Origin: Arctopsyche grandis
Taxonomy: Eukaryota; Arthropoda; Insecta; Trichoptera; Hydropsychidae
Assembly (NCBI RefSeq): GCF_051622035.1
Contig: NC_135361.1
Location: 26,467,205-26,531,204 of the forward strand
DNA length: 64,000 nt
Direction: 5' to 3'
The translations under genes and the position numbers were made by a program. How positions within the stretch are numbered: position 1 is the stretch's first letter; each line of letters starts with the position of its first letter. Below the pieces are notes generated by a model. It searched no databases. It saw only the letters and a program-made list of their open reading frames with translations, and was not told where the DNA came from. This document shows positions 47,378 through 51,093 of this stretch, piece after piece.

Positions 47378-47879
47378 TTATTGGGAAGACGAAACGATTG
47401 AAGTATCAGAATTTACCACTTCGCTCGACCTATGAAAGTTGACCATAGCTTTCTGAGCTTCAGAGATGGCATGTTTGCAAAGTTCTCCAGGAAGTAGGAG
47501 TCGTACAGCCGTTTGAATTTCACGAGTGCTGAGAGTGTGACGCTGACGTATAGTAGTCAGCCGACCAGCTTCAGTAGCAATCCGTTCGAATAGATCTTGG
47601 ACGAAAGAGTTCATGATAGACATGGCGCTCCTCGATATACCCGTTTGCTCATGGACTTGTTTGAGCACACGGTATATGTGTGTGGCAAAGGATTGAACTC
47701 TACGCTTTTTACGATTCTTTTTACCTGATCCCATCAAAGGCCTAGGTGCTTTCATAGCCTGAAAAAAAGATGTTAAATTATTTGCATTATGATTTAAGAT
47801 ACAGATATGTAAAAAAGAAAATTACCGTTTTTGTAACAGATTTGGTAGGAACTGGTGGTGCCTTCTTTGTCCGCGCCAT
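47378..47879 (-). CDS. Divergent histone H2B variant with an intron
   Basis: A core histone that would pair with H2A in nucleosomes. Exon 1 is 47826-47879, exon 2 is 47378-47758. The 67-bp intron (GTAATT to TTTCAG) joins in phase 0, giving 144 residues. The histone fold is intact, with [33 protein letters not shown] and [17 protein letters not shown]. Oddities: the N-terminus MARTKKAPP copies the first residues of H3 (ARTK); the position equal to K120 (ubiquitylated) is N125 in KAMVNFHRS; loop residues are changed (TTIRQRHTL); and there is a Ser-rich tail of about 15 residues. There is no 3' histone stem-loop, and AATAAA occurs on this strand at 47162-47167. It is a replication-independent variant, possibly germline. 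Divergent from the H4 variant at 50782. Confidence 0.93.
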
Positions 47880-48239
47880 TTAAGACAGAATAGATTAAAT
47901 TTTAAGTAAAAATTCACCGTATATGACACTAGCGCATCGTCATTAACGTGTGTAAATGATGATATTGTGGCAAAAGCATATAGCATGTATTGAAATTATA
48001 ATAGTAGGTATATATAGCTTTTATTGTCACATTCTTTACCACCAATGGAAAGGCAGCTGTGTTTGTGTGTGTGTGGGAATATAATAATTTCAAAATCAAT
48101 TATATAAAATTAAAATTATCTCGGTACAATACGATTAAAATATTTTTATTGTTCAACAAATAATTATTTAATATATTGAGCTTATTCAAACTCGAAGATG
48201 AAGTGTTATTTATTACTTAACTCTAGGGCAGGGAAGGTG
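47880..48239. other. Upstream region of the H2B variant
   Basis: AT-rich, no TATA box or CpG island recognised, no further exon seen. Confidence 0.4.
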
Positions 48240-49055
48240 TGTTAACAGTATCCCGGCTTATTAAAACATGGTTGTGTTGTTTGAAGAGGATCTTTATTTT
48301 TATTCAGTTTATACAAGAGTTATTGTATATGTATGAAGGAGCTAGTTGCTCACTTCGGATAAGTGAGCTGGCTGAACTCCCAATGTTCACTCTTGCCTCT
48401 TGACGTCATTTGTTTTGCAGTTGAAACGTGGGAAACGTGGGATTGAAACGTGTCACAATGTATTCCTACCAGAGAAATGTAATAATAACAGAAGGGCCTT
48501 TACGAATAAATAATTCTTGTCAATTTTACGCGGTCCGTCTCTATAAATACGCTACATCGCACGGAATGCAATCGGATCAATTTACTTATAAAAATGTATC
48601 TCATGTTGTTTATTGTGTGTTTTTGAATGTATTGTGCAATTTTTACCGATGCTTGTCCATCTTGCGAGTAATATAAACAAACAGAGAAGTTTTTATCGGA
48701 CATACGTCGAGCACCAAGCGTCAAATACGACTGATGCTAAAATTATTTAGATCTGTCCGTGGACAGAATGTCACTTGATAACAATATAACACCTAAAGCC
48801 ACTTCTATTAATATTACATTTCTCTGGTTAACCGTATCCCGGCCTATTACAACACGGTTGTGTTGTTTGAAGAGGATTTCTATTTTATGTTCAGTTTATA
48901 CAAAAGGTATTGTATATGTACGAAGGAGCTAGTTGCACACTTCGGATAAGTGAGCTGGCTCAACTCCCAATGTTTACTCTTGCCTCTTGACGTCATTTGT
49001 TTTGCAGTTGAAACGTGGGATTTCGTGTAGTCACAATGTATTCCTACACTCAAAT
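48240..49055 (-). mobile_element. Small LTR-pair element (TRIM-like fossil)
   Basis: Two direct repeats of about 220 bp (about 48240-48470 and 48836-49055) flank about 370 bp. On the - strand each repeat starts near TAGGAATACATTGTGAC and ends GCCGGGATACGGTTAAC-like, with the same end motif as 42133-42909. The internal part has no gag or pol and its two ends are inverted (CCAGAGAAATGTAATA). This fits a terminal-repeat retrotransposon in miniature. The two repeats differ at several percent of sites, so it is not recent. Non-autonomous, lacking coding capacity. Confidence 0.6.
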
Positions 49056-49584
49056 TATTATTTATGCTTTACATATGAGCAGAGTCGACGAGGGAGGGTG
49101 GGAGACGGGGTAAAGTTTCAGGGCCCGGACTACTTGAGGGGCCCTGTATCGGGACATCCAACTGACTAATATTGATATTTTATATTATTCTGTGTTTATT
49201 TAATGCTAAATATTTATTATAAATCGTACCTGTTCATCATACTTTCTAATTAAATATTTTAAAAAATAGCAACAACGTATACATAGGTGTTTTTCTAACA
49301 GTTTTGATAGATTTTTCGCATATTAAAAATATATCAATAAGATATTTTTTTTAGTTTGCCATAGGGCACGGAATAATTTTTTCCCAGAGCCCGAGATTCC
49401 TCTCAGCGGCCCTGCATAAGAGCCGTTATATATGAAAGTGGCGGAAGTCCAATTTTCAGTTACAAAAATACTATTCTGTTTGACTTAATTCACAATAAAT
49501 TTATATCACTTATTTTAATTATATATGTCCAGAATCTCGGAAAAGCAGAATAAACGTATTTCCACCCACCACTATAATAATAAT

Positions 49585-49732
49585 TATATATATATATATA
49601 TATATATATATATATATATATATATATATATATATATATATATATATATATATATATATATATATGTATATATATATATATATATATATATATATATATA
49701 TATATATATATATATATATATATATATATATA
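49585..49732. repeat. (TA)n microsatellite, ~148 bp
   Basis: Almost pure TA with one GT interruption near 49665. Peptides of alternating Tyr and Ile from it are artefacts. Confidence 0.97.
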
Positions 49733-50145
49733 AACGGACACGATGTATGTATGTTTGTGGGTAAGTATCTATGTGTGAGTGCATCGACAAGTGTGGAGAT
49801 TTCAAAAAAACAAATTTTAGAATACCAGGAGTGTACCTTATGCATAGTAATGTGGCGTGAAGACCGATCGTGTCGAGGAGACGCGGGATAAAGGGGGAAG
49901 GGGGGGGGGTATGGAACGGCTGACATGTGCTCCTGATTTGGAATGGGTGGCGTCAGCGTCAGATGCACTGCGCGGTAGCGTACACACAAATACACGAAGA
50001 CACACACATTTTCATTCATTATTTCGAACGGATGAACGGCGCATTAATACGCGCGCGCACCTATATATTACCTTACACCATATTTATATAAAACATGTAA
50101 CTTTATTTTAATTCGTGTATCAATTCCTTTCCGAAGCCACCCATT

Positions 50146-50295
50146 GGCTACGTCCACACTACCGATATCCACACCCGATATTTGCGAATTTTTCCATAAC
50201 CAGTTCCTAAATAGCAAGCACAAGTTGCAATATGGGAATTGGATATGGAAAATTCGAGAATATCGGGTGTAGATATCGGTAGTGTGGACGTAGCC
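50146..50295. mobile_element. Palindromic MITE upstream of the H4 variant
   Basis: 150 bp with inverted ends GGCTACGTCCACACTACCGA extending through CCACACCCGATAT, flanked by ATT on both sides. Arms are about 60 bp with few mismatches. It ends about 490 bp before the H4 start codon. Confidence 0.8.
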
Positions 50296-50697
50296 ATTGA
50301 AATCAACGGGCAAAACACTGATATTTAATATTTTGCGAGATGTTTCTTGAAATTAAGGAAAGTGGACTTATGCCACTTATAACAATTATAACGGCTCAAT
50401 TATGTATGTGCGTTTTAAGTAAGATTTTTTTTTAAATACTACAGAAAAATAATAAAAAAAATACTGCAAGACTGATTCAGTTATTATGAGTATAGAAATC
50501 AACATTTCCTCGTTATATCAGTAATTAATAAAATGGTGATATTTCTCAAAACCCAAATTAATCAAGGCAGTGTTCTTAAAGATTTTGTGTTTTTGTTTTC
50601 AACAAATCTTTGATCATTTAATTTTCTTCATATTAAGTTATACTCACAATCAATATTAATAGTGTATTTGGATAATACTGTACGAGTAAATAATGTC

Positions 50698-50703
50698 TAT
50701 AAA
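50698..50703 (+). promoter_or_regulatory. TATA box candidate of the H4 variant
   Basis: TATAAA lies 79 bp before the start codon, leaving room for a start near 50728-50735 and a leader of about 50 bases. Confidence 0.5.
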
Positions 50704-50781
50704 TGGCCATATGATCAACAATACAGTTGTTAATTAGGGACGGTTCCCGTAGACAACACGACGCTCATCAAAACGAGCATC

Positions 50782-51093
50782 ATGGTCGGACGAGGAAAAG
50801 GATCCAAGGGTCTCGGAAAGGGTGGAGTGATGCGTCATAGAAAAATCCTCCGGGATAACATCCAAGGCGTTACGAAGCCGGCCATCCGCCGTCTGGCCAG
50901 ACGAGGCGGAGTCAAGCGGATTTCCGGACTGATATACGAGGAGACGCGAGGAGTGCTGAAGACATTCATTGCATCTGTCATGAGGGATGCGGTCACATAC
51001 ACGGAGCACGCCAAGAGGAAGACAGTGACGTCCATGGATATTGTGTACGCGCTGAAACGGCAAGGTAGAACGCTCTACGGCTTCGGAGCTTAG
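50782..51093 (+). CDS. Divergent histone H4 variant lacking Lys16
   Basis: Core histone H4, 103 codons, normal length, no intron. The fold is intact, with [20 protein letters not shown], the YEETRGVLK helix and the [11 protein letters not shown] end. Against animal H4 (numbered without Met) about twelve residues differ: residue 1 is Val, G7S, A15V, K16M, V21I, I26V, a cluster V60T/L62I/E63A/N64S/I66M, plus conservative changes near 83-87 and a final Ala. K5, K8, K12 and K20 are kept, but the key acetylation site K16 is Met. The ORF is clean, and changes are clustered, mostly conservative and away from buried contacts, suggesting selection rather than decay. There is no histone stem-loop after the stop; AATAAA lies at 51312-51317. 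Divergent neighbour of the H2B variant. Confidence 0.95.

Follow-up and report, generated by a model that had tools for sequence, protein, structure and literature searches.

A divergent pair of variant histone H2B and H4 genes, including an H4 with methionine at position 16, outside the canonical arrays of the caddisfly Arctopsyche grandis

Introduction

Of the core histones, H4 is the most conserved, and few variants of it have been described; one of them is the fungal H4E, a lineage-restricted variant whose gene structure is unlike that of canonical H4, with many introns and divergent, longer tails (PMC10878826). Rice H4.V keeps a conserved core and abrogates K16 together with K5, K8, K14, and K20 (PMC7617672). 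In trypanosomatids, H4 and H2B variants occur in one species: H4.V is a single-copy gene away from the canonical array, and H4.V and H2B.V are described as differing in genomic distribution and in stage (PMC13052989). The residue at issue in this study belongs to the H4 basic patch (16-KRHR-19), a stretch of importance to remodellers and compaction. In flies, the K16A mutation is lethal to about 80% of adult males; single basic-patch mutations, K16A among them, are reported to leave 30 nm fibre folding in vitro unaffected (PMC9667139).

Here we analyze a window of 64,000 nucleotides, the whole stretch of DNA under study, which lies on contig C7 of the 475.7-Mb genome of Arctopsyche grandis (Trichoptera, Hydropsychidae) and carries one variant H2B gene and one variant H4 gene.

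Results

The H2B and H4 variant genes lie head to head, with 2,902 bp between the two ATG codons (47880..50781), so that the divergent pair about 2.9 kb apart proposed in the original prediction is borne out, coordinates included. The features of the locus are collected in Table 1. The H2B variant gene has one intron and the H4 variant gene has none, and the spliced H2B product of 144 aa matches the annotated A. grandis protein of NCBI LOC143914388 (P0001) exactly. Elsewhere in the window are a piggyBac-type transposase (PF13843; 27521-29245), a SUI1/eIF1 gene (38593-38955), and a frame at 4106-7162 that we take to be of the KDM4-like JmjC type. A second short element with long terminal inverted repeats, seen by eye, lies beside the histone genes at 51569-51719. 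Rfam and tRNA scans of the window give no matches.

Table 1. Features of the variant H2B/H4 locus (window coordinates; lysine changes in H2B in human numbering, H4 in mature numbering)
Feature	Position	Strand	Remarks
AATAAA overlapping the H2B stop	47377..47382	-	second AATAAA starts at 47167, also -
H2B variant exon 2 and stop	47378..47758	-	histone fold; C-terminal extension to ...SSSQ; changes K120N, K34V, K43R, K57S, K85Q
H2B variant intron	47759..47825	-	67 bp, GT-AG, phase 0
H2B variant exon 1	47826..47879	-	18 codons; starts with H3-like MARTK
TATATA, candidate TATA box	48011..48016	-	some 130 bp 5' of the H2B start; read from sequence
Direct repeats between the genes, 137 bp + 60 bp	48241-48433 and 48827-49020		two copies
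Long TA repeat between the genes	near 49590-49732
Short terminal-inverted-repeat element between the genes	near 50143-50300		seen by eye
TATAAAT, candidate TATA box	50698..50704	+	84 bp upstream of the H4 start; read from sequence
H4 variant	50782..51093	+	intronless intact ORF, 103 aa (103 codons, stop included); changes versus the genome's canonical H4: T1V, G7S, A15V, K16M, V21I, I29V, V60T, L62I, E63A, N64S, I66M, A83S, V86I, G102A
AATAAA 3' of the H4 stop	51312..51317	+

With the H4 variant as query, the genome returns at least 25 matches: the variant, 23 canonical H4 genes located on C3 and C26, and a divergent H4-like protein encoded on the short contig C69. The same protein is encoded by 22 of the 23 canonical genes, and the remaining one has a single change; the variant is found once, on C7, away from the canonical copies. 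The H2B variant is the sole C7 match of a histone family search (75 matches genome-wide). The H4 variant is 86% identical to the canonical H4 of the genome, its PF00125 score of 25.9 falls just below the cut-off of that broad family (26.4), and the solved structures closest to it are all histone H4. The H2B variant is identical to canonical H2B at 57 of 90 core positions and changed at the other 33, its PF00125 score of 67 bits is above the cut-off, and its closest solved structures are mostly named H2B. An AlphaFold model of the H2B variant, built on a two-sequence alignment, was poor (mean pLDDT 50.4) and was set aside.

No histone stem-loop is found in the window at up to two mismatches to four consensus forms, and perfect stem-loops are present in all four canonical histone loci scanned (L002, L010, L029, and L043). 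In the last of these, a non-LTR retrotransposon-like frame pair (L043:1712-6084) is situated between divergent canonical H2A and H2B genes of the histone array. The two variant genes thus hold up as genuine, linked, devoid of the stem-loop, and located outside the canonical array. As for their supposed polyadenylation, AATAAA signals 3' of both genes and a window free of stem-loops agree with it, but the polyadenylated transcripts themselves are predicted only. The 600-bp upstream regions of the two genes have no 10-mer or longer word in common, and the two common 9-mers observed compare with 4.4 on average among 300 pairs of first-order random sequences. This counts against a shared promoter for the pair, the words in common not exceeding chance.

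Compared with one canonical copy, the H4 variant differs in 67 codons, 53 of them synonymously and 14 nonsynonymously, and the NG86 estimate of dN is 0.122 with dS undefined; for the H2B variant core versus canonical H2B, dN is 0.363 and dS is again undefined. We read the undefined dS as synonymous saturation. The 14 amino-acid changes in H4 are fewer than expected under neutrality (P = 2.7e-4, with about a third of the synonymous changes credited to the variant branch and a nonsynonymous share of 74% assumed). GC3 is 0.62 in the H4 variant and 0.39 in the H2B variant, compared to 0.68 and 0.79 in the respective canonical genes, and this difference suggests that the two variants may have separate histories. 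Judging from these sequence features, we take both to be functional, old, stem-loop-free variants.

In the H4 variant, K16 (mature numbering), replaced by methionine, is the sole loss among the 11 canonical lysines; K5, K8, K12, and K20 are kept, as are all 14 canonical arginines in A. grandis and, within the basic patch, R17, H18, and R19. The H2B variant has lost five of the eight core lysines (human numbering), K34, K43 (to R), K57, K85, and K120 (to N), and keeps K46, K108, and K116; K30 and K31 also remain. The predicted loss of H2B K120 and H4 K16 is therefore confirmed for A. grandis (K120N and K16M).

The only clear relative of the H2B variant in the best 120 of 7,967 matches is P0028, a 125-aa sequence of the exon 2 part that is 76% identical, and a profile search with both H2B sequences adds no further close relative in the best 120 of 7,981 scored, a capped list beyond which distant members may lie. 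For the H4 variant, the only clear relative in the best 120 of 7,992 scored is P0175 (95% identical). There is thus one relative per gene, known from contigs of 1,504 (P0028) and 1,367 (P0175) bases, whose source label 'lgn' we take to mean Logan. Changes in common with these relatives number 11 in H4, K16M included, and 22 in the H2B core, and the H2B lysine losses common to A. grandis and P0028 are K34, K43, K57, and K85 (4 of 8 core lysines). A motif scan of residue 16 in the best 120 H4 matches gives 144 K and 2 M, the latter being the H4 of the window and P0175. At residue 120, the best 120 H2B matches have 107 K, 6 N, 5 R, 1 A, and 1 T; A. grandis aside, N, A, and T fall at the joins of double or rearranged H2B predictions, and the R residues belong, among the matches listed, to five carnivore H2B-like proteins (P0032, P0036, P0040, P0046, and P0048). 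A double lysine loss common to the relatives is not supported: P0175 has K16M, and P0028 keeps K120, which corresponds to one half of the condition under which the original prediction would count itself refuted. Going by one relative per gene, the loss of K16 is common to both known H4 variants and the loss of K120 is known from A. grandis alone. H4 position 16 is shown as fixed methionine on the two sequences, and K120 loss as a core feature is disfavored, given the lysine of P0028. With 33 of the 90 H2B core positions changed, it is not remarkable in itself that K120 is among them.

The N-terminus of the H2B variant, MARTKK, resembles that of H3 (MARTKQ) and is encoded on its own short exon, and its first 15 bases match both the H3 and the H3.3 genes of the genome at 12 positions. 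The H3.3 gene, on C12, is named from signature residues. The H3-like start may be due to chance; P0028 covers the exon 2 part only, and the ARTK N-terminus is read in A. grandis alone.

Besides this H3.3 gene, the 75 matches of the histone family search include an exon on C4 that is H2A.Z-like, a gene on C8 that is H2A.X-like, and an NF-Y-like sequence on C3. The gene on C8 (about 4,508,375-4,509,233; L046:4375-4393, L039:1259-1482, and L039:1559-1733) is a divergent, intron-bearing H2A that ends in SQEY, as in H2A.X, and shares about 73% identity with canonical H2A across 102 residues; its protein might pair with the H2B variant in a dimer. No matching H3 variant occurs among those of the 75 matches that were inspected, and the case for a complete variant octamer is weakened accordingly; an H3-like sequence interrupted by a stop, at C3:35854941-35855282, is one of the other matches. 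Four short contigs with histone-family matches (C69, C72, C17, and C149 of G000; L033-L035, L037, and L038) have a GC content of 0.27-0.32 in the stretches read. Clearly divergent H3 is encoded on both C69 and C72, and a divergent H4 on C69 as well; the four contigs probably represent DNA from a different eukaryote within the assembly.

Discussion

We lean toward a reading in which the locus holds two old variants outside the array, an H2B that has an intron and is poor in lysine and an H4 that lacks introns and has an unswitchable residue 16, with K120N arising later. Both variants would be freed from the replication-coupled array and expressed outside S phase, the germline being the most likely place, and two replication-independent variants with a presumed germline use are what the sequences most likely represent. 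In nucleosomes carrying them, H4 position 16 would be uncharged and not switchable by MOF-type acetyltransferases. Since Met16 is both uncharged and non-acetylatable, it would neither pair fully with the acidic patch of a neighbouring nucleosome nor respond to acetylation, and the variant nucleosomes would perhaps be a little more open rather than shut. H2B K120N would be a species-level addition outside the core of this design. The methionine at position 16 might itself be one of 14 drift changes (14 of 102 positions, a base rate of about 14%).

The original prediction went further and saw in the pair a co-evolved, special nucleosome insulated from both K120 ubiquitin and K16 acetylation, with the cross-talk to Dot1 switched off. 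Its premise that both marks stimulate Dot1 is in line with the literature, in which H2B ubiquitin and H4K16ac both promote Dot1 activity (PMC13044951), and a DOT1 domain is encoded in the genome (two exon-wise matches); the absence of both lysines in A. grandis and the tight divergent linkage of the genes also speak for it. However, H4K16ac is described as a fine-tuner of H3K79 methylation in yeast (PMC13044951), and Dot1-mediated H3K79 methylation in flies needs H4 R19 rather than K16 (PMC9667139), the former being a residue that the H4 variant keeps together with R17 and H18. The H2B relative P0028 keeps K120, so that a nucleosome deaf to both signals would hold only in part, and the upstream regions have no words in common beyond chance. 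The notion that the nucleosome is locked out of these signals is correct in that Met16 cannot be acetylated, but it is one-sided, as methionine also removes the charge of K16. Taken together, we consider such a Dot1-insulated nucleosome very unlikely.

Insulation from MSL would be another way to connect the two genes. MOF, which acts in H4K16ac, and MSL2, which acts in H2BK34ub, are found in one complex (PMC3510053), and H4 K16M with H2B K34V would remove both known MOF-MSL substrates and allow escape from MSL-type hyperactivation, with a sex chromosome or the germline as examples of where this could apply. Losses of K16 and K34 are common to both known members of the respective variants and an MSL2-CXC domain is encoded in the genome; because K34 and K16 are both described MSL targets, insulation from MSL fits the common changes better than insulation from K120 ubiquitin. 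Four of the eight core H2B lysines are lost in both members, though, so that K34 would be among them about half the time by chance; K30 and K31 are retained near K34, and the methionine could imitate the neutral, acetylated state instead of blocking it. Given these base rates, the preference for MSL over K120 ubiquitin is weak, and the MSL account as a whole appears quite unlikely to us. Highly improbable is its extension to a dedicated caddisfly variant nucleosome that is MSL-insulated through K16M and K34V, free of K120 ubiquitin in A. grandis as well, and able to attract H3K4 readers or writers through the ARTK start of its H2B. If it were true, it would represent a type of chromatin whose activity follows histone content rather than marks, for example in the germline.

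In a genome of 475.7 Mb, the probability that two random single-copy genes fall within 3.4 kb of each other is about 1.4e-5, so the linkage of the H2B and H4 variants is more than coincidence. The canonical array in L044 has the order H4(-) H3(+) H2A(-) H2B(+) H4(-), and this order minus H3 and H2A is exactly a divergent H4/H2B pair. The locus could accordingly be an orphon, an array unit copied to C7 that lost H3 and H2A and whose remaining H4 and H2B drifted under relaxed or backup constraint without any special joint function, and the saturated divergence would suit such a history. Against this, the 2.9-kb interval contains no H3, H2A, or H2B remnant by tblastn at E <=10 (two weak matches to the H4 query lie near 48834-48920, E 5.5 and 6.9), an absence of H3 and H2A that age could explain, and the changes in common with the relatives together with purifying selection argue against mere drift, which makes the orphon account unlikely in our view. 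The linkage may be inherited, functional, or both, and most simply reflects a common origin or local regulation in common.

Returning to the two old, array-independent variants that we favor, the notable part is an animal H4 variant with a K16M change common to its known members; the one H2B relative does not bear out a module blind to both marks. An animal H4 with Met16 in both known sequences amounts to a natural experiment on a lysine whose change to alanine kills about 80% of adult male flies (PMC9667139), and if the variant is tissue-restricted, it would show where an animal affords or needs chromatin without K16 acetylation.

A survey of the open-access literature, with subscription journals mostly outside its scope, found, among the papers listed (for most searches the best 10 to 20), no insect H4 variant without K16 and no caddisfly H2B/H4 pair. 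By the comparisons made here, the pair appears orthologous to no described variant, the trypanosomatid proteins being compared by description only. The carnivore H2B-like proteins lack K120, as the caddisfly H2B variant does, but they have arginine rather than asparagine there and are mammalian proteins, not close relatives. Rice H4.V is like the caddisfly H4 in its conserved core and abrogated K16, whereas the caddisfly protein keeps 10 of its 11 lysines, and the available text on this plant variant mentions no linked H2B variant (PMC7617672). The trypanosomatids offer the nearest parallel to variants of both H2B and H4 in one species and to a single-copy H4 variant away from the canonical array, in a source whose available part mentions neither linkage nor K16 loss (PMC13052989). 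With the fungal H4E, the caddisfly H4 has in common a lineage-restricted variant and a gene structure unlike that of canonical H4, but it is intronless, of canonical length, and set apart by 14 changes (PMC10878826).
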